From an uncultured Alistipes sp. (GTDB lineage: Bacteria; Bacteroidota; Bacteroidia; Bacteroidales; Rikenellaceae), in contig CALUJN010000085.1 of assembly GCA_944320985.1 (NCBI GenBank), forward strand, positions 1 through 47,946: a stretch of DNA of 47,946 bases. Reading direction: 5' to 3'. This document shows positions 30,811-39,953 of this stretch, one piece after another; position 1 is the stretch's first letter; every line of letters begins with the position of its first letter. The notes beneath the pieces were generated by a model, which worked only from the letters and a program-made list of their open reading frames with translations, was not told the origin of the DNA and did no database searches. Position numbers and translations under genes: made by a program.

Positions 30811-30841
30811 TTTGCGGAATCGGGAAATAAATTTAACTTTG
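30811..30841 (+). promoter_or_regulatory. Promoter of the nuclease/TonB locus
   Basis: TTTG (30811-30814), a 19-nt spacer and TAACTTTG (30834-30841), with a leader of about 85 nt before the ATG at 30931. The leader holds a direct repeat TAGGCTGC/TAGGCTAC and an AT-rich end. Confidence 0.75.
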
Positions 30842-30930: not shown

Positions 30931-33261
30931 ATGAAAAGAGTTAACATTTGGAAGACTTTGTTCTTCTCGGTATTGACCGTTGCGGCCTTTACGGGATGTT
31001 CGAAGGATGATTCGGACGATGGCGGCAGCAGTGTCATGCCTTCGATTACGGTCAACGGAAGCAATTCGACTACTGTTGGCATAGGATATTCGGGTGGCCG
31101 GACGAGTAATGTCGAGGTCGTATCTTCGGGAGACTGGACGCTGTCGATCACTTCGGGGGACGGCACGGCCTGCCAGGCATCGCCTGCTTCGGGCAAGGCC
31201 GGCACGACGTCCGTTTCGTTCAATGTTACCGAGGCGTCTGCAGACCGCACGTTTGTTGCTACGCTGACGACGTCGGGCAAGATTGCCGGGTATGAGCAGA
31301 CCGTATCTGCAAAGATCATGATCGATCAGACCAATGCCCTTTACAAGGAGAACTGCGGTTCAAATGTAGAAAAGGGTGACGGATGGCCGAAAGTGACGGA
31401 GTATAGCGGCTGGATCAAAGGCGGTCTGAACGATCAGTCGGGTGTCACTTATGGCGGCAGCAGTGCTTTCGTTGCCAACAGCGGTAACGCATTTAAACCG
31501 ACTGAGGCTGAACTGGCTGTTGCTTCGGGGGCTCCCTATGCATCGATGAACACGGCTTCGTCGAAGTTCTATATCAATGACATTAACATTGGATCGAGCA
31601 AGAACTTCACCTTCACCTTCACGGCCATCCAGCAGGTCGACTATACCGGTTCTTCGGTATTCGGCCCCGTTGAGGCTTCGACGATTCGTCTGGGTGTTTC
31701 GGTAGACGGTGGTACGAAATTCCTGCCCGCAACCTACACGGTTGACCAGATTGCAGACGGCGGTAACTGGTATCTCTGTACTTCGGAGTTCAAACTGCCT
31801 GCAACCGCTTCGACGGATAAGATCTCGATCCGTTTCGACAATTTTAATTGTCCCACATCGCAATATGGCCTTCGTCTGGATGACCTCAAGCTCATCGAAG
31901 GCGGTAATGGCACCGAACTGACTCCGGCTGAAACCACGACGGTTTCCATTTCGGAGATCGTAACATCGGGTGAATTCTATGAGGTTGAAGGAGCTACGGT
32001 TGTTGGAACCTACCAGCAGGGCTTCGTCATGCAGGACGAAACGGGTGCGATTCTCGTATATATGGGTTATGGCGCCAAAGATATTCCTGCCGAGGGCAGC
32101 ATTGTTACCGTTTCGGGAGAGGCTGCCAAGCACGGAGATGCATTGCAACTCAAAGATGTGAAAATCAGTTCCAAGACAGACGGTACGATGCCCACGTTGA
32201 CTCCGACTGTGGTTACGGCGGACAATATCACCGGCATGATGACCTCTCCGAAGGCTACGTACGTTAAGATGACCGGAACGGTGGATGTCTCCACGAATGA
32301 TGGTAAAACCTATTATAATGTAAAATTCCTGTTCAATAGCTCCTATACGGGTTCCATTTCCTATCCGAATGAGAATCTGAACGTCTCCTCTTTTGATGGG
32401 AAGACCGTTGATGTCGAGGGTTGGTTCGTAAATAACGGTTTGCAGAACGGCGGTGGAAAATATTTCACGGTTGTAGCACGTTCGATCACGGAGAATTCGA
32501 ACCCTGCATCGGCCAGTTTCACGACGCAGCCGACGGCATTTGCCGCTACGGACCCCGTAGCTCAGGATCTGACCTTTACGACGAACAATGTGGAGACGGT
32601 TGAATTCGAGATCACGGGAACCGATGCCGACAAGTTCTCCTATGAGTACACGTCGGGTACGACCGTGAAAGTAAGTGCCAAGGGCAACAACGAGTCGGAT
32701 GCCGCCTATACGGCCACGCTGAATCTGAAGGGTGACGGTGTTGTACTTGCTTCGGTTCCGCTGACGCAGTCAAAAGCTGTGACTTCCGGAAGCAAATGGG
32801 TCAAGGTGACGGAGGCTCCGGCAGACTGGAGCGGCGATTATCTGATTGTTTATGAGGCAGAGAATATGATCTTTGACGGATCTCTTACTGATCTTGATGT
32901 CGCAAGTAATTATAAGACTGTCGCGATTGCAGACAATGCTATTGCAAACAGTGCGGAAATCGAGGCCTGCAAGTTTACCATTGCAACAGTAACTGGAGGT
33001 TATTCGGTCAAGAGTGCCAGCGGATTTTATATTTACAATAGTGGAAGCAGTAAGAATCTTTTGAATACGAAGGCTGAATATTCGGATGATATGGTGAATG
33101 TGATTTCTGTGGATAAGGATCAAAGTATTCTGATCACAGGTAAGGCAGGTGCTGTTCTTCGGTTCAATACGGCCTCTGGAGATGATCGTTTCCGCTATTA
33201 TAAACCGACTTCGTATACTGCACAGAAACCTATAACTCTGTACAAATATACGGCTGAATAG
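30931..33261 (+). CDS. Surface lipoprotein with BACON-like and OB-fold-like domains
   Basis: A 776-residue lipoprotein (lipobox ending at Cys23, then SKDDSDDGG, an acidic start typical of surface export). Order: a BACON/Ig-like domain (about 37-135); a beta-rich module (about 140-330) ending RLDDLKLIEGG; an OB-fold-like domain (about 336-505, with FVMQDETGAILVYMG and VTVSGEA) of the type linked to secreted nucleases; a second Ig-like domain (about 512-610); and a C-terminal module (about 615-776) ending TLYKYTAE. No catalytic motif is seen, so a binding role is likely. It heads a locus with two nucleases and a TonB receptor, so nucleic acid is a plausible ligand. Ligand and domain boundaries are inference. 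Confidence 0.72.
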   Translation: MKRVNIWKTLFFSVLTVAAFTGCSKDDSDDGGSSVMPSITVNGSNSTTVGIGYSGGRTSNVEVVSSGDWTLSITSGDGTACQASPASGKAGTTSVSFNVTEASADRTFVATLTTSGKIAGYEQTVSAKIMIDQTNALYKENCGSNVEKGDGWPKVTEYSGWIKGGLNDQSGVTYGGSSAFVANSGNAFKPTEAELAVASGAPYASMNTASSKFYINDINIGSSKNFTFTFTAIQQVDYTGSSVFGPVEASTIRLGVSVDGGTKFLPATYTVDQIADGGNWYLCTSEFKLPATASTDKISIRFDNFNCPTSQYGLRLDDLKLIEGGNGTELTPAETTTVSISEIVTSGEFYEVEGATVVGTYQQGFVMQDETGAILVYMGYGAKDIPAEGSIVTVSGEAAKHGDALQLKDVKISSKTDGTMPTLTPTVVTADNITGMMTSPKATYVKMTGTVDVSTNDGKTYYNVKFLFNSSYTGSISYPNENLNVSSFDGKTVDVEGWFVNNGLQNGGGKYFTVVARSITENSNPASASFTTQPTAFAATDPVAQDLTFTTNNVETVEFEITGTDADKFSYEYTSGTTVKVSAKGNNESDAAYTATLNLKGDGVVLASVPLTQSKAVTSGSKWVKVTEAPADWSGDYLIVYEAENMIFDGSLTDLDVASNYKTVAIADNAIANSAEIEACKFTIATVTGGYSVKSASGFYIYNSGSSKNLLNTKAEYSDDMVNVISVDKDQSILITGKAGAVLRFNTASGDDRFRYYKPTSYTAQKPITLYKYTAE

Positions 33262-33287
33262 TCAGACAGTCGAGGAAACCGACTTAT

Positions 33288-33341
33288 AAACCAACCACTC
33301 TTGGCGGGATATTTCCGGATATCCCGTCAAGAGTTTGGTTT
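33288..33341 (+). other. Long near-perfect hairpin between lipoprotein and nuclease genes
   Basis: AAACCAA pairs with TTGGTTT, and after a 2-nt bulge ACTCTTGGCGGGATAT pairs with ATATCCCGTCAAGAGT (one G-T), with a 6-nt loop: about 23 pairs. Only three T follow before CTAAAAA, so it is a poor intrinsic terminator. It could be a processing or mRNA-stability element, or a leaky terminator that lowers expression of the nuclease genes. Confidence 0.75.
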
Positions 33342-33384
33342 CTAAAAACGATCTTGGGATCCCCAGTTTTTTACCTTTTACCGG

Positions 33385-34653
33385 ATGTTTTCCACCTTTT
33401 TCAAATCGGCAGGCTGGCCGGGAATTCTTTTTACGACCCTGCTTGTCCTTTTCACGGGCTGTTCCAAGGACGAGGATGCACCCTCTGCGGCGTCGCTCGC
33501 CGAACCCTTCGTGAATTGTAATACCACATCGAACCGACTCATCCTCCAGGGCTCGTCGGGCGTCTCTTTCGAGGCTGTGATCACCCTCGACGACAACGGG
33601 GACGATACGACCGACGGCAACGAATCCGGGGCATGGTGTTCGTTCGAATCCAATACCTCCGTGGCCAACGGCTCCGTGGGGCGCGAGGTGCCCCTTTTGT
33701 TGGAGGCCAACACCTCCGGCAAATACCGTGCGGCCCGAATCCAGGTAACTTATACCGACGGTTATTCCACCACCTTGATTTTGTGGCAGATGCCTGCCTC
33801 ACCCGATCCGCAGTTCCAATGCCCCTGGGGAGAGCAGCCCGTCTACCGCGCAGGTGCCGATTATATCTACAAGACCTATTTTACGTCGCTTCTCTCCACG
33901 AACAAATACCTCATGGGCGGAAGGCGGCGGAATTTCTCGATCTGCTTCGACAGCCGCTACCGGGTGTCGCTGTGGGTGGCCTATCCGTTGCACGGATGCT
34001 ACACCTCGCCGCGAGCCGGGCGCTCCAATGCATGGGCTTACGACCCCAACAACCAGCTGCCCGAGATTGCGGAGTCACAGCAGGCTTATATCATAGACTC
34101 GTATGGTTCGGGTGCCGCCCGCGGTCACCAGTGCCCCTCGGCCGACCGCTTCAACACCGCGGCAACCAACGAGATGACCTTCTACTCCACGAATATCATG
34201 CCCCAGAACTACGATTTTAACGGCGGCTCCTGGAGGAGGCTCGAGGATAAGATCCGCGACTGGGCGCCGACGACCGTCACCTCGATGCGTTACGATACGC
34301 TCTTTGTCGTGACGGGGGCCCACCTTACGGGAGCGACGTTTTCCGACCGCAAGGGCAAGCAGGTCGGCTACCCGGACAAATGCTGGAAGGTGCTTCTCAA
34401 GCAGAAACGCGGTCTGAATAAGAACCGGCAGATCTGGGAGTTCTCGGCCGACGAACTGCAGGCCATCGGGTTTATCTTCCCGAACAACGCCTCCAGTGCG
34501 GAGATGAAACTTCTCGATGCGGCCTGCCCGGTTGCGGAGGTCGAGCGTCTGACGGGCTTTACGTTCTTTGCGAATCTCGACCCCGAAGTGGCCGAGGAGC
34601 TCCGGAATCGCGAACCCGATGCCACCCAATGGCCCGGATTGTCCACCTTGTGA
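33385..34653 (+). CDS. DNA/RNA non-specific endonuclease (NUC1-like) lipoprotein
   Basis: A 422-residue exported nuclease. The lipobox gives Cys26 followed by SKDED. An Ig/BACON-like domain (about 40-138) precedes a NUC1 beta-beta-alpha-metal domain (about 150-410). The catalytic signature reads ARGHQCPSADR with general-base His248; the usual DRGH has Ala in place of the Asp. The metal-site element NIMPQ...FNGGSWRRLE is intact (Asn279, Glu287). It should cut DNA and RNA outside the cell or on its surface. It lies 123 bp after the lipoprotein gene, with the hairpin between and only a weak promoter-like TACCTTTT. Confidence 0.88.
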   Translation: MFSTFFKSAGWPGILFTTLLVLFTGCSKDEDAPSAASLAEPFVNCNTTSNRLILQGSSGVSFEAVITLDDNGDDTTDGNESGAWCSFESNTSVANGSVGREVPLLLEANTSGKYRAARIQVTYTDGYSTTLILWQMPASPDPQFQCPWGEQPVYRAGADYIYKTYFTSLLSTNKYLMGGRRRNFSICFDSRYRVSLWVAYPLHGCYTSPRAGRSNAWAYDPNNQLPEIAESQQAYIIDSYGSGAARGHQCPSADRFNTAATNEMTFYSTNIMPQNYDFNGGSWRRLEDKIRDWAPTTVTSMRYDTLFVVTGAHLTGATFSDRKGKQVGYPDKCWKVLLKQKRGLNKNRQIWEFSADELQAIGFIFPNNASSAEMKLLDAACPVAEVERLTGFTFFANLDPEVAEELRNREPDATQWPGLSTL

Positions 34654-34696
34654 CGCCCCGGAATGTTATGAATCGTTCATTTAACCGTATAACCTT

Positions 34697-35731
34697 ATGA
34701 AGAAAAACCTTTTGACAGGACTGGTTGCCGTATTGATTGCGGTGGCGTGCTTTGCACAGAAGCCCTATAAAGTGGTCTTCTACAACTTCGAGAACCTGTT
34801 CGACACGATCAACGACCCCGGAGTGAGCGACGAGGAGTTCACCCCCGAGGGTCCCAAGAAGTGGAACACGGTGAAGTATGAGAAAAAACTTGCGAATCTC
34901 GACCGGGTATTGTTCGACATCGCCTCGGAGGATCGGGATTTCCCGATCGTGATCGGAGTCTCGGAGATCGAGAACCGTTCGGTGATGGAGGATGTCATTG
35001 CGCAGCCCAAACTCGCGCACGGCAACTACCGGATCGTGCATTTCGATTCGCCGGATGCCCGAGGAGTGGATGTTGCGTTTTTCTACCGTCCGGACGTCTT
35101 CAAGCTCGAGGGCAGCAAGGCCCATCGGTTCGTGATGCCGGGGATGCCGGATTTCAAGACGCGTGATTTCGTGACGATGTGGGGTACGATCGAGGGCGAG
35201 CCGTTCTTCTTCGTGGTGAACCACTGGCCGTCGCGTCTGGGTGGCAAGGAGGCCTCGTCGCCCGAGCGTGAGGAGGCGGCACGTCAGGTGAAGCACATCG
35301 TCGATTCGGTGATGGCAGCCAACCCCGCCACGAAGGCTGTGGTGATGGGCGACCTGAACGACGATGCTACGGACCGCAGCGTCGTCGAGGGACTTTGTGC
35401 CAAGGGCAAGATCAAGGATGTGAAACCCGGCGAGATGTTCAATCCCTTCATCGCGCTGCTCAAGGCCGGTTACGGAACGCTGGCCTACCGCGACGAGTGG
35501 AATCTGTTCGACAACATCGTCGTGTCGGAGAACCTTGCTACGGGTTCGACCGGCCAACTGAAGATCCTTCCGGTGAAGGAGTCGAAGTTCTACGGGGGTA
35601 TTTTCCGCCGGCCCTACATGCTCCAGAAGGATGGACAGTACAAGGGATATCCGTTGCGGACGTTCGTGGGGAATGATTTCCAGGGCGGTTTCAGCGACCA
35701 CTTCCCCGTCTATATCTATATCGGCAAATAA
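34697..35731 (+). CDS. Secreted endonuclease/exonuclease/phosphatase (EEP) family protein
   Basis: A 344-residue EEP-fold hydrolase with a signal peptide (about 1-20, ACFA before Gln21). Motifs: YNFENLFD (Asn30, Glu32), SEIEN (89-93), NHWPSR (His176), GDLNDD (Asp219, Asn221) and SDHF (Asp334, His335), the full set for metal-dependent phosphodiester cleavage. It could be a nuclease or a phosphatase; the paired NUC1 nuclease makes digestion of oligonucleotides likely. It is followed after 18 bp by the TonB receptor. Confidence 0.88.
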   Translation: MKKNLLTGLVAVLIAVACFAQKPYKVVFYNFENLFDTINDPGVSDEEFTPEGPKKWNTVKYEKKLANLDRVLFDIASEDRDFPIVIGVSEIENRSVMEDVIAQPKLAHGNYRIVHFDSPDARGVDVAFFYRPDVFKLEGSKAHRFVMPGMPDFKTRDFVTMWGTIEGEPFFFVVNHWPSRLGGKEASSPEREEAARQVKHIVDSVMAANPATKAVVMGDLNDDATDRSVVEGLCAKGKIKDVKPGEMFNPFIALLKAGYGTLAYRDEWNLFDNIVVSENLATGSTGQLKILPVKESKFYGGIFRRPYMLQKDGQYKGYPLRTFVGNDFQGGFSDHFPVYIYIGK

Positions 35732-35749
35732 CATGCTAACAATAAACGT

Positions 35750-38584
35750 ATGAAACTGAAAACTCTACTTTTTCTGATGCTCGCCATCGTGAGCTTTGCC
35801 GCCTATGCGCAGGACGGCGGTGTTCGCGGCAAGGTGGTTTCGCGCAACGGACGCGAGGCACTGAGTAACGTCGAGGTGAAGATCGAGTCGCTGGGACTTA
35901 CGGCCACGACGGACAACGAGGGAAATTTCGCCTTGGAGAATCTTCCCGCCGGCAGCTATACGCTGCAATTCACGACATCCGATTTCGAGCCGTTGAGCCT
36001 GATGGTCCGTGTGGGTGCGGAGCAGGTTCAGAACCTCAAGCAGGTTGTGCTGGTTCCGCTGGGCCCCACAACCACGGCCTTTTTCGATGATGCGATCTTT
36101 GCGGAGTTCGACACCGACTCTTCGGCGTCGGATACGCAGGCGCTTCCTTCGTCGCTGTCGGCCTCGAAGGATCTGTTCAACAACATCGCGTCGTATCGTT
36201 TCAGCGAGATGCGTTTCAATGTCCGGGGTTACGATTCGCAGTATTCGGACATCTATCTGAACGGCATCCGCTTCAACGATGCCATGACGGGCTACGGACC
36301 GTGGTCGTTGTGGAGCGGTCTGAACGATGCCACGCGCAACCAGGAGAACTATACGGGCCTCGAGATGGCGGACTTCGGCATCGGCGGCATCGGCGGCATT
36401 ACGAACGTCAATGCCCGTGCGTCGCAGGTTCGCAAGGGTTTCCGTGTGAGTGTTTCGAACGGCAACCAGATGTATCGTTTCCGTGCGATGATCTCCTACG
36501 GTTCGGGACAGCTCGACAACGGCTGGTCGTATGCCTTCTCGGTCGGAACGCGTCAGGGCGGCAACGGCTATGTCGACGGAGTCTATTACAACTCGTATGC
36601 CTATTTCGCCTCGGTGGAGAAGCTCTTCGGCGACAACCACCGTCTGGCCTTCACGTTCCTGGCATCGCCTGCGGAGCGTGGCGCGCAGCAGGCCTCGACC
36701 GATGAGGCGTATGCCCTGTTCGGCAACAACTACTACAACCCCAACGTGGGCTACCAGGCCGGCAAACTGCGCAACTCGCGTGTGCGCAACACGCATGAGC
36801 CGATCGCCATGTTGAACTACACGTGGGATATTTCGGAGAATACGCGTCTGAATGCGGCCACGTCGCTGCGTTTCGGAAAGAACGGTTATTCGGCGCTGAC
36901 GTGGAACGGCGGCTCGGATCCGCGCGGGGATTACTACCGCTACATGCCGTTGTCGGACATGACGCAGATCCTGCCGGGGGTAACGACCCAGCAGACGATC
37001 TACTACTACCTGCAGAGTGCCGTTCAGGCCGGACAGGTATGGACCGGCATGCTGGACTACGATGATTTCTTCCACAAGAACCAGTACGTCGATACGGAGC
37101 TGACGGATCTGATGGGCGACAGCCGTCGTTCGAACTACATGATCGAGGAGCGCCATACGGACCAGCTGGACTACAACCTGGCGGTGAACCTGCAGCACAA
37201 TATGCGCCACAACATGAAGATCGTCGGAGGCGTGAATCTGCGCGTGAACCGTACGAACTACTATTCGCAGGTGAAGGATCTGCTGGGCGGCGACTACTGG
37301 TACGACATCGACAAGTTTGCCGAGCGTGACATGGCCAGCGAGACGGCTTATCAGAACGATCTGGACTACTATTGGGCAACGGGACACGCCCGTATTGCGC
37401 GCAAGGGTGACAAGTACGGCTATTACTATCGAGCACATCTGCTTGAGACGGACGCCTGGGCCAACTACACGTGGGCTATCGGCGGATTCTCGCTGGGAGT
37501 CGGCGCATCGGTGGGTTATTCGGAGATGTACCGCGAGGGTATGTGGCGCAAAGGCCTCTTCCCGAATAGCTCGAAGGGCGATTCGAAGAAACTGGACTAC
37601 CTGATCTATGAAGGCAAACTCTCGCTGGGTTACAAATTCTCGGGTGCCCATTCGCTGGAGGCCAATGCGGTGATCGAGCAGAACGCCCCGAAATTCAATA
37701 CGGCCTTCGTGTCGCCGCGTACGCGCAACAACACGACGCCGGGTCTGAAGGCCGAGAAGGTCTTCGGTGTGGATCTGACCTACAACCTCAATCTGCCCTA
37801 CATCAAGGCCCGTGTGTCGGGATACTACACGACGATCCAGGATCAGTCGAAGGTGATCTCGTTCTACGACGATACGCGCAGTTCGTTCACGAACTTTGCG
37901 ATGAGCGGCATCGACAAGCGTCATTACGGCGTGGAACTGGGTCTTTCGGTTCCGGTCTGGAACGGCATCTCGGTTGTGGGCGCCCTCAGCTGGGGTGACT
38001 ACACCTACACGTCGAACGCGAACTTCGTGCAGACGGTGGACAACGTGGACCGGATCGTACTTCGCGACAAGGTCAACTGGAAGGGTCTCCATGTGGAGAG
38101 TTCGCCGCAGTTGGCCGCCAACGTGGGTCTGGACTACCGTGGAGCCCGCAACTGGTTTGCCGGCGTGAATCTGAACTATTATGACAATCTCTACCTGTCG
38201 ATGAACCCCTTCTACCGTACGAATACGGCCGTGGAGTATTATACGAATCTCATCTCTACGGAGCTGAACAACGGCAATTATGAGGCCGTAGCCGGAGCCC
38301 TTGAGGCGATCGATGAGCTTCAGGCCCAGGAGAAGTTCGGCGGATACTTCACTTTGAGCGCCAATGTGGGCAAGAACTGGTATCTGGGCCGTTACATGCT
38401 GGGCATGAGCCTGGAGGTGAAGAACATTCTCAACGACCAGGACATCCGTACGGGCGGTTACGAGCAGATGCGAATGAGCAAGGTGCGCAGCACCACGGGA
38501 GAGTATATCTTCGGACGTTTCCCGTCGAAGTACTTCTACATGCTGGGTACGACCTATTTCCTGAATGTCTATTTACGATTCTAA
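35750..38584 (+). CDS. TonB-dependent outer membrane receptor with N-terminal regulatory-like domain, no SusD partner
   Basis: A 944-residue protein. A signal peptide (about 1-20, AYAQ) is followed by a carboxypeptidase-regulatory-like domain (about 24-105), a plug domain (about 110-240, with FNVRGYDSQYSDIYLNG) and a long barrel rich in aromatic strands ending FLNVYLRF. It should import a substrate across the outer membrane using TonB energy. The usual SusD lipoprotein is missing; a DUF5689 lipoprotein follows after 21 bp and two nucleases precede it, so nucleic-acid fragments are the best candidate cargo. Codon use is like its neighbours. Confidence 0.9.
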   Translation: MKLKTLLFLMLAIVSFAAYAQDGGVRGKVVSRNGREALSNVEVKIESLGLTATTDNEGNFALENLPAGSYTLQFTTSDFEPLSLMVRVGAEQVQNLKQVVLVPLGPTTTAFFDDAIFAEFDTDSSASDTQALPSSLSASKDLFNNIASYRFSEMRFNVRGYDSQYSDIYLNGIRFNDAMTGYGPWSLWSGLNDATRNQENYTGLEMADFGIGGIGGITNVNARASQVRKGFRVSVSNGNQMYRFRAMISYGSGQLDNGWSYAFSVGTRQGGNGYVDGVYYNSYAYFASVEKLFGDNHRLAFTFLASPAERGAQQASTDEAYALFGNNYYNPNVGYQAGKLRNSRVRNTHEPIAMLNYTWDISENTRLNAATSLRFGKNGYSALTWNGGSDPRGDYYRYMPLSDMTQILPGVTTQQTIYYYLQSAVQAGQVWTGMLDYDDFFHKNQYVDTELTDLMGDSRRSNYMIEERHTDQLDYNLAVNLQHNMRHNMKIVGGVNLRVNRTNYYSQVKDLLGGDYWYDIDKFAERDMASETAYQNDLDYYWATGHARIARKGDKYGYYYRAHLLETDAWANYTWAIGGFSLGVGASVGYSEMYREGMWRKGLFPNSSKGDSKKLDYLIYEGKLSLGYKFSGAHSLEANAVIEQNAPKFNTAFVSPRTRNNTTPGLKAEKVFGVDLTYNLNLPYIKARVSGYYTTIQDQSKVISFYDDTRSSFTNFAMSGIDKRHYGVELGLSVPVWNGISVVGALSWGDYTYTSNANFVQTVDNVDRIVLRDKVNWKGLHVESSPQLAANVGLDYRGARNWFAGVNLNYYDNLYLSMNPFYRTNTAVEYYTNLISTELNNGNYEAVAGALEAIDELQAQEKFGGYFTLSANVGKNWYLGRYMLGMSLEVKNILNDQDIRTGGYEQMRMSKVRSTTGEYIFGRFPSKYFYMLGTTYFLNVYLRF

Positions 38585-38605
38585 CAACCGGGAAGAGCAG
38601 ATATT

Positions 38606-39889
38606 ATGAAAAGTCTTAAAATAGCAATTGCAGTTCTTGTCGGCGCGTTGGCCGCGGGCTGCTACAATGATTTCGACACGCCGGCCCCTCTGAAGGTCTA
38701 CACCGATGCGGACATGACGGCACAGGGCCTGGAGCAGGTGACGATCAAGGAGGTGAAGGGCTGGTTTGATTCGGCCTTCGGAGGCATCTCGAACACGGGC
38801 ACCAACAAGGACTGGTCGACGACCAAGACGTTGAAGTTCGGGACCCTGACATCCCAGGAGGAGGAGTTCGCCGGGATGAAAGGCTGGCCGAATGCCTCGA
38901 ACAAGTACATCAAGGGCAAGGTGATCAGCAGCGACCGCCAGGGCAATATCTACAAATCGCTCTATATCGATGACGGCACGGCCGGTATCGAGCTGAAGCT
39001 CTACAACGGACTCTATCTGGATTACTACCTGAATCTGAATACGATGGAGAGCCAGTGGGTGTATGTTAAGCTGGATGGTCTTTTCCTGGGCAACTACCGG
39101 ATGATGCTTTCGATCGGTGATGCACCGTCGGATGCGATCAATACGTCGGGAACGCACAAATTCTATGCGAACTCGAACCTCGACAACCCGAACATTGCCA
39201 AACAGTATGTCTTCCCGGGCGAGCGGGTGATGCTGGACGATACGAATATCGTGGAGATCAACTCGCAGAACTACACCACGTTGGGCGAGGCCCAGCTCGG
39301 GCGTCTGGTCCGCTTCAAGGATGTGAAGGTCCGTTATGCGGGTATCCCGAACCAGGATCATGTCACGAATCCGATCATGACGAACGGTAGCTTTACCAGC
39401 GTGTTCCCGACGTGGATCGTGACCGACTGGGGACAACCCAAATATGGACCTTGGTATCGTTGGGCCTACAACATCGACAACGTCCGGCTGTATGCTTCGG
39501 TGTTGATCTCCTATAACGATGCGGCCAAGTACATGTCGGACAAGGGCGTCTATTCGATTCGTACGAGCGGCTATTCGCAATTTGCGATGAAGCCCATCCC
39601 GAAGGACGGAGCGGTCGGTACGGTGCTGGGTATCTATGGAATTTATGCGCGGGAGAGCACCTTTACCGGAGGTGCGAGTGATTATGCCCAGTATCAGGTA
39701 TCCGTGAGCCGACTTGAGGACCTCGACTTCAAGGCGGAGGATGTCTTCACGGAAGCCGAAGCGGATGAGCTGGCCCGTTGGGCCGGGGACAACCTGAGCT
39801 CTTGGAACACGGTGGATGTTGAGATTTACGATCCGTATGAGCCGCCCGTGAAGAACGATCCCATGGGAGACGATTTCGGAGGCGAATAG
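38606..39889 (+). CDS. DUF5689 domain lipoprotein
   Basis: A 427-residue lipoprotein (lipobox AAGC, Cys19). The DUF5689 region (about 55-290) has YIKGKVISSDRQGNIYKSLY and IDDGTAGIELKLY, a beta-barrel pattern like an OB fold. A C-terminal part (about 290-427) ends in an acidic, disordered tail. Function is unknown. Position directly after a TonB receptor, where a SusD would normally be, suggests a surface substrate-binding partner. It ends the locus, 23 bp before a strong terminator. Confidence 0.82.
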   Translation: MKSLKIAIAVLVGALAAGCYNDFDTPAPLKVYTDADMTAQGLEQVTIKEVKGWFDSAFGGISNTGTNKDWSTTKTLKFGTLTSQEEEFAGMKGWPNASNKYIKGKVISSDRQGNIYKSLYIDDGTAGIELKLYNGLYLDYYLNLNTMESQWVYVKLDGLFLGNYRMMLSIGDAPSDAINTSGTHKFYANSNLDNPNIAKQYVFPGERVMLDDTNIVEINSQNYTTLGEAQLGRLVRFKDVKVRYAGIPNQDHVTNPIMTNGSFTSVFPTWIVTDWGQPKYGPWYRWAYNIDNVRLYASVLISYNDAAKYMSDKGVYSIRTSGYSQFAMKPIPKDGAVGTVLGIYGIYARESTFTGGASDYAQYQVSVSRLEDLDFKAEDVFTEAEADELARWAGDNLSSWNTVDVEIYDPYEPPVKNDPMGDDFGGE

Positions 39890-39912
39890 TCTCTCATCGA
39901 TTCTGAAAACGG

Positions 39913-39953
39913 AAGGCGGTCCGAACCATGTTCGGACCGCCTTTGTCTGTTTC
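39913..39953 (+). terminator. Intrinsic terminator of the nuclease/TonB locus
   Basis: A perfect 14-bp stem (AAGGCGGTCCGAAC with GTTCGGACCGCCTT), loop CAT, then TGTCTGTTT. Confidence 0.88.

Follow-up and report, generated by a model that had tools for sequence, protein, structure and literature searches.

We examined five adjacent genes in a 47,946-nucleotide contig of an uncultured Alistipes sp. of the family Rikenellaceae (GenBank assembly GCA_944320985.1, contig CALUJN010000085.1); this whole stretch is called the window below. The genes, numbered 1 to 5, are plus-strand open reading frames (ORFs) that fill positions 30931 to 39889. They encode a lipoprotein of a BACON/OB family, a nuclease lipoprotein, an exported enzyme of the endonuclease/exonuclease/phosphatase (EEP) family, an outer-membrane receptor of the TonB type, and a DUF5689 lipoprotein. 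The locus probably encodes a port in the outer membrane that is powered by TonB, admits DNA or DNA fragments, and comes with its own surface nuclease. We regard DNA as the most likely substrate because a homologous receptor and DUF5689 pair is essential for natural transformation in Riemerella anatipestifer, where tonB mutations also have an effect. OB-fold domains in some relatives of gene 1, the presence of two nucleases in the set, and a further gene 2-type nuclease that closely follows the five genes in two related loci (L145 and L178) argue for the same substrate.

According to the scheme we favor, extracellular DNA would be held at the cell surface by two lipoproteins, those of the BACON/OB type (gene 1) and the DUF5689 type (gene 5), and cut there by a third, of the NucA type (gene 2). 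Gene 5 would also bind to the receptor (gene 4) as its cap or partner; the receptor would then move the DNA into the periplasm, and the EEP enzyme (gene 3) would trim it there or outside the cell. From the gene set and its relatives we infer what the substrate is, in which order the steps take place, where the proteins act, and that genes 4 and 5 are partners. A first-pass annotation of the window had read the locus as a system that captures, cuts, and imports nucleic acid as a nutrient. Capture, cutting, and import fit the conserved gene set; the food purpose is a possibility, and the characterized relative points to natural transformation.

The five genes and their conservation

All five products appear to be exported. 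Genes 1, 2, and 5 encode a lipobox followed by acidic residues (GCSKDDSDD, GCSKDEDA, and GCYNDFD, respectively), and such residues mark surface lipoproteins in Bacteroidota. Genes 3 and 4 encode an ordinary signal peptide, as judged by eye. Among relatives, a lipobox was found in 61/70 copies of gene 1, 68/77 of gene 2, 13/78 of gene 3, and 78/78 of gene 5. The ORFs, lipoboxes, signal peptides, and Pfam domains therefore bear out the earlier description of five neighboring same-strand genes for exported proteins. A scan of the five proteins against NCBIfam gave no model at its cut-off.

Gene 2 matched the Pfam family Endonuclease_NS (E-value 5e-36) and, weakly, the Endonuclease_NS_2 model (E 0.037); a match to BACON fell below the cut-off. 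Its nearest solved relatives are 2o3b (E 4e-16) and 1zm8, both named Nuclease and both of which we take to be Anabaena NucA, together with EXOG. All relatives but one keep the RGH motif of Endonuclease_NS (76 of 77; the copy without it is a 143-amino-acid fragment), and 49 of the 68 full-length copies pass a stricter joint test for RGH..P..DR and N..PQ. With the domain, the motif, and the lipobox all found, gene 2 is a NUC1-type nuclease lipoprotein, as had been proposed. DNA-entry nucleases are known from transformation, among them EndA and Bacillus NucA, and gene 2 resembles them as a surface nuclease in a DNA-uptake setting. Unlike them, it is a lipoprotein nearest to 2o3b and EXOG.

Gene 3 gave a strong match to Exo_endo_phos_3 (PF19580; E 8e-120). 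All four EEP motifs are kept in 75/78 relatives, which together with the signal peptide agrees with its proposed identity as a secreted EEP enzyme; a search of the EEP profile against the PDB returned nothing at E 0.001. For gene 4, Pfam reported CarbopepD_reg_2/CarboxypepD_reg and a Plug match below the cut-off. By sequence, the receptor profile found no TonB receptor of solved structure. It matched just two structures, NOMO2 and a scaffoldin, in each case with its N-terminal CarbopepD-like part. Gene 5, directly downstream of gene 4, contains DUF5689 (E 1e-22), and the best PDB hit of the DUF5689 profile was at chance level (E 0.6).

The BACON/OB label that gene 1 had received holds for the family through its relatives; the window copy itself gave no Pfam match at E 0.05. 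A profile of gene 1 relatives matched solved glycosidases at their N-terminal parts, presumably BACON domains (E 2e-15 and 1e-11), and, weakly, an EEP-domain protein at its OB-like part (E 0.026). Among ten relatives scanned, six contain BACON over its cut-off and three contain DUF5689 (L147, L148, and L166; E 1.5e-20 to 1.7e-23). OB-fold nucleic-acid-binding models exceeded the cut-off in relatives L206 (E 1.4e-14) and L190 (E 5.8e-11) and came just under it in L186. When the profiles of genes 1 and 5 were compared, the alignment was confined to the signal peptides. Judging from the domains of its relatives, gene 1 is likely a nucleic-acid binder.

We then looked at the conservation of the set. 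A pattern scan of named genomes combined with receptor alignment confirmed at least 585 stretches, of which the best 80 by closeness were kept; the figures from these 80 describe the subclade of the window and not all loci with this receptor type, which we label T1. Their receptors are 39 to 89% identical over the best segment, the nearest (89%) being from an uncultured Alistipes. They come from Alistipes and other Rikenellaceae, Bacteroides (B. reticulotermitis, B. pyogenes, and B. salyersiae), Prevotellaceae, and unclassified Bacteroidales; L166 belongs to the culturable B. salyersiae DSM 18765. Neighbors were called by simple ORF rules and with hidden Markov models built from the same loci, and a gene matching either the gene 1 or the DUF5689 profile was counted as gene 1. 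Wherever the position could be assessed, the EEP gene (77/77), the nuclease gene (72/72), and the gene 1-type lipoprotein (57/57) lay upstream of the receptor on the same strand, and DUF5689 lay downstream (75/75). All five genes followed the order 1-2-3-4-5 on one strand in 55 of 55 assessable Bacteroidales loci. The co-occurrence that the first-pass annotation had proposed to search for is thus constant among close relatives, and the possibility it had raised that the five genes are rarely neighbors was not what we found.

Beyond this subclade, a long receptor match (E 1e-74 or better) was present in about 56 of 119 genomes of the window's order, among the matches listed. In a wider set with duplicates removed, a DUF5689 gene is directly downstream of the receptor in 60/61 genomes. 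An EEP gene adjoins the receptor in 52 of 60 assessable genomes, divergent in 47 and on the same strand in 5, and is absent beside it in the other 8. A nuclease gene was near the receptor in 6/61 genomes, five of them of the five-gene kind; for 19 of the 61, the flank was only about 1.5 kb, so a nuclease could escape there. The trio of EEP enzyme, receptor, and DUF5689 protein recurs across several families of the window's class. The surface NucA-type nuclease and the BACON/OB lipoprotein are additions of the window's subclade. In genome G079 (loci L231 and L062), the order is divergent EEP, receptor, DUF5689, a larger DUF5689-type protein, and nuclease; this arrangement could mark a transition between the trio and the five-gene set.

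These counts bear on a role in defense or biofilm remodeling, by which the nucleases would destroy extracellular DNA and the receptor would import something unrelated. The nuclease lipoprotein with its surface-export residues would suit such a role, as would the eight T1 loci that lack an EEP gene. The strict order and short gaps in 55/55 loci, and the link of the receptor to transformation in R. anatipestifer, make it quite improbable.

The parallel with a polysaccharide-utilization locus (PUL), which the first-pass annotation had drawn, is useful as an analogy. Like SusC/SusD PULs, the window combines a TonB-type receptor, surface lipoproteins, and a surface enzyme in one operon. Unlike them, its five genes encode neither a SusD nor a glycosidase domain that Pfam detects; its enzymes belong to nuclease families, and its lipoproteins are of the BACON/OB and DUF5689 types. 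We therefore rejected a simple PUL.

Table 1. Features of the five-gene locus, with positions in the window, and of loci with the sister receptor type T1b described below, with positions in the named locus
Feature	Position	Strand	Description
Candidate promoter	30811..30841	+	Bacteroidota type, fits TTTG-N-TAnnTTTG; upstream of gene 1; consensus match only
Gene 1	30931..33261	+	Surface lipoprotein, BACON plus OB/DUF5689 family, 776 aa
Hairpin between genes 1 and 2	33297..33334	+	17-bp stem, z -5.2; possible leaky terminator or attenuator
Gene 2	33385..34653	+	Surface lipoprotein nuclease, Endonuclease_NS (NucA/EXOG type)
Gene 3	34697..35731	+	Exported EEP enzyme, PF19580
Gene 4	35750..38584	+	Outer-membrane TonB-type receptor with CarbopepD_reg domain, label T1a
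Gene 5	38606..39889	+	DUF5689 lipoprotein, presumed receptor partner
Intrinsic-terminator-like hairpin	39912..39944	+	After gene 5; 15 pairs, 9 G-C, z -5.4
Nuclease-family genes near T1b	L218 12917; L219 12846; L225 12912		

Homology to a transformation locus of Riemerella anatipestifer

The first-pass annotation had named siderophores and peptides as unrelated substrates that the closest characterized receptor relative might import. The only characterized relative we found, RA0C_RS04915 of R. anatipestifer ATCC 11845, is needed for transformation. In the parts of PMC8459023 considered here, transposon work in this duck pathogen led to RS04915, which encodes a CarboxypepD_reg outer-membrane protein, and to RA0C_RS04920, whose product carries DUF5689 plus DUF5017. 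Markerless deletion of RS04915 left no detectable transformation, and markerless deletion of RS04920 brought transformation below detection (PMC8459023). The authors grade their own model as speculative, and the same source says both that homologues are widespread in the phylum Bacteroidetes and that the receptor homologue is found only in Flavobacteriaceae. In the corresponding parts of PMC8383284, tonBA and tonBB mutants of R. anatipestifer are impaired in transformation, and the authors leave the tonBA effect open.

One of the loci in our collection, L121, is the RS04915/RS04920 locus, as shown by gene order, domains, and exact primer matches. Its order is recA, four genes, comEC, two genes, EEP, receptor, and a gene for DUF5689 plus DUF5017, a spacing that equals exactly that of the locus tags RS04870, RS04895, RS04910, RS04915, and RS04920. 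Two comEC primers for ATCC 11845 (PMC8383284) match L121 and L122 exactly and none other of the 233 loci. The DUF5017 match in L121 is below the Pfam cut-off (E 4e-5), and this domain is also named in PMC8459023. The L121 receptor is 63 to 67% identical to that of a presumed Chryseobacterium, and the value given in PMC8459023 is 65.9%. Since L121 is the RS04915 locus and has an EEP gene upstream, RS04910 is the EEP enzyme. A T1 receptor is present in 88 of 90 genomes of the family we take to be that of Riemerella (f111). Of six genomes of the presumed Riemerella genus (g321), four have comEC and the receptor on one contig, no more than about 13 kb apart, and the other two have them on different contigs.

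All three proteins of the trio are homologous between the two systems. The window-family receptor aligned with the RS04915 counterpart over its full length (889 columns; E 3e-144; about 26 to 28% identity), and so did the EEP enzyme with the one adjoining RS04915 (344 columns; 39% identity; E 1e-92). The DUF5689 proteins aligned over 276 columns with 25% identity (E 1e-23). Like the window, then, RS04910-RS04915-RS04920 places an EEP enzyme, a CarboxypepD_reg receptor, and a DUF5689 lipoprotein side by side. Unlike in the window, the R. anatipestifer EEP gene is divergent, the locus lies near comEC and recA, and its DUF5689 protein carries DUF5017; the stretch examined has no surface nuclease and no gene 1 lipoprotein. 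The parts of PMC8459023 considered here describe no RS04910 mutant.

A siderophore, peptide, or glycan receptor was rejected as the first choice for gene 4, since no solved TonB receptor was matched and the characterized relative is a transformation gene. Two further arrangements were seen. In the flavobacterial loci L037, L039, and L040, the trio is accompanied by a second EEP gene, two to four genes away from its DUF5689 gene; the L037 copy matches PF19580. In L126 (6104-11167), a T2-type receptor, one of the other CarbopepD receptors, is followed by a single protein in which DUF5689 and Endonuclease I are combined with a type IX secretion tail.

A sister receptor and the purpose of the proposed port

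A T1-type match was found in 111/113 genomes of the window's family, and it comes in two forms. The long form, T1a, is that of the window and occurs in about 64 of the 113 genomes, counted by eye and with one copy cut by a contig end. Matches of the other form, T1b, begin after the CarbopepD_reg part; among the matches listed, T1b accounts for those of the 47 genomes without T1a and for the second matches in most others. The window genome holds both. Its T1b copy is at 10721-12994 of contig C78 (locus L055, 3560-5995), with two DUF5689 ORFs about 9 kb away (starts 14900 and 15774 in L055) and no nuclease in the 19.5-kb stretch around it. Across 14 T1b loci, two DUF5689 genes directly follow the receptor in 8, and none has an EEP gene. 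In 3 of the 14, all Rikenellaceae, a gene matching the Endonuclease_NS profile lies two genes past the DUF5689 pair.

In a receptor tree, T1a and T1b each form one clade (100/100 each), and the two clades group together with the G079 receptor at 100/99. A further T1 group (100/100) comprises Riemerella and other flavobacteria, and T2 paralogues sit on a separate branch (100/100). An earlier tree agrees; in it, the window genome's own paralogue, L055_3, fell inside T1. The main tree took in the T1b rows and two doubtful rows, which fell with T2. It left out L065_1 (a long unrelated row), L048, L231 (whose G079 receptor is kept as L062), and eleven further loci that were near-duplicates or were dropped for size. 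With T2 as the root, the order of the T1 subgroups was not resolved. T1b is thus like the window receptor in being its sister clade, and unlike the window set in lacking an EEP gene in 14 loci and a nuclease near the copy of the window genome. Going by this tree, T1a and T1b are both relatives of RS04915, whose role could have been retained by either one. Once T1b was found, we no longer equated the window receptor with the competence port.

What the port would serve is nearly even between a source of food or phosphate and gene acquisition, and we lean slightly toward food. The lean comes from the nuclease built into the operon in this subclade and from T1b being available for transformation; it is narrowed by the nuclease-family gene that 3/14 T1b loci also have nearby. 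The set may have branched off from a competence port to serve foraging, or it may be a second port for competence.

A narrower version of the DNA port, which overlaps with the reading we favor, is that the set is the natural-transformation port proper. The nucleases would make ends or single strands for entry, and the DNA would pass on to a ComEA-like protein and ComEC. Genes 4 and 5 are homologous to genes essential for transformation in R. anatipestifer, the EEP gene is linked to the receptor in that competent species too, and a nuclease-family gene also occurs near some T1b receptors. The window genome contains comEC, dprA, and a ComEA-like HHH protein. In Porphyromonas gingivalis, ComEA and ComEC are essential and import into the periplasm is called unclear, according to the parts of PMC11532111 (2024) considered here. 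Against this version, T1b-type matches are present in most genomes of the family and could represent the core port, T1a occurs in about 64/113, and no nuclease was found near the receptor in the loci of Riemerella or other flavobacteria. We consider it rather unlikely that the set is the transformation port proper.

A pure nutrient system is possible but doubtful. In such a system, nucleic acid would be cut outside the cell and taken in as nucleotides or short fragments to supply phosphate, nitrogen, or nucleosides, independently of transformation. The joining of a surface nuclease and an EEP enzyme with a receptor and lipoproteins in one operon is consistent with this, as is the presence of T1a in only part of the family. 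It is opposed by the homologous receptor and DUF5689 pair that is essential for transformation from a nuclease-free locus (PMC8459023), by the absence of any nucleotidase or nucleoside transporter among the five proteins in the Pfam scan, and by the variable gene after the set in the ten loci scanned.

Several observations weigh against the DNA port itself. The window receptor is only about 26 to 28% identical to RS04915, and one-to-one orthology does not hold, T1a and T1b being sister clades in one genome. The parts of PMC8459023 considered here hold no demonstration that RS04915 itself passes DNA, and it may act indirectly. For tonBB, the authors attribute the effect to iron, and removal of phosphate lowers R. 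anatipestifer transformation (PMC8383284). The Pfam scan of gene 5 showed no DUF5017 domain, which RS04920 has, and L129, the nearest relative of gene 1, showed no DUF5689, BACON, or OB domain. The eight T1 loci without an EEP gene and the missing nucleotidase and nucleoside transporter belong here as well. Co-occurrence with competence genes was rejected as a discriminating test, since these genes are near-universal (comEC in 78/80 genomes, dprA in 72/72, and HHH proteins in 70/72). Finally, a surface nuclease acting freely might be harmful to transformation. On balance, we still favor a DNA port with its own surface nuclease.

Predicted transcription unit and meaning for the Bacteroidia

TTTG ... 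TAnnTTTG is the Bacteroidota promoter consensus. The site upstream of gene 1 is the sole plus-strand match to it between 28 and 40 kb, and the whole window holds 9 such sites versus 0.34 expected. The promoter that the first-pass annotation had placed there is accordingly present as a predicted consensus site, and the terminator it had placed at the operon end corresponds to the hairpin after gene 5. The gaps between genes 2 and 3, 3 and 4, and 4 and 5 are 43, 18, and 21 nt.

The hairpin between genes 1 and 2 was absent from the earlier account. Similar structures recur at this place within the operon across relatives, with differing sequence. Of 48 relatives whose genes 1 and 2 are separated by 40 to 400 nt, 29 have a stem of 10 bp or more there and 32 have a fold z below -4. 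Such a stem was found in 7/80 random 120-mers from the same loci, drawn once per locus. In 21 other relatives, the gap is 2 to 31 nt, which leaves little room for a hairpin, and one further gap is 846 nt. Such close spacing in these relatives argues for counting gene 1 as part of the unit. The hairpin may be a leaky terminator that gives gene 1 a separate expression level.

The gene that follows the set was identified in ten loci: peptidase M3 in five, GH20 in two, DsbD in one, and a further nuclease in two. Peptidase M3 comes directly after the DUF5689 gene in L165, L169, L172, L181, and L067.

A literature search, judged by its listings, found no description of the EEP-receptor-DUF5689 trio or of the five-gene set, with subscription journals and preprints mostly outside its scope, and among nucleic-acid utilization operons in the literature it found none describing the five-gene set. 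What was known is that the receptor and DUF5689 pair is essential in one duck pathogen, as reported in the parts of PMC8459023 considered here. What is new is the same pair together with an EEP enzyme across several Bacteroidia families and a nuclease-armed version strictly kept in the sampled Bacteroidales subclade. We put forward tentatively, as a real but less than even possibility, that much of the Bacteroidia imports DNA through a TonB receptor with a DUF5689 cap, an analogue of SusC/SusD, and not through type IV pili, and that in gut Bacteroidales this port was duplicated and one copy armed with a surface nuclease and an OB-fold lipoprotein for DNA foraging. The outer-membrane step, called unclear in P. 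gingivalis (PMC11532111, in the parts considered), becomes testable. The finding is relevant to the ways in which gut bacteria acquire DNA or feed on it, and it supplies concrete genes and proteins.

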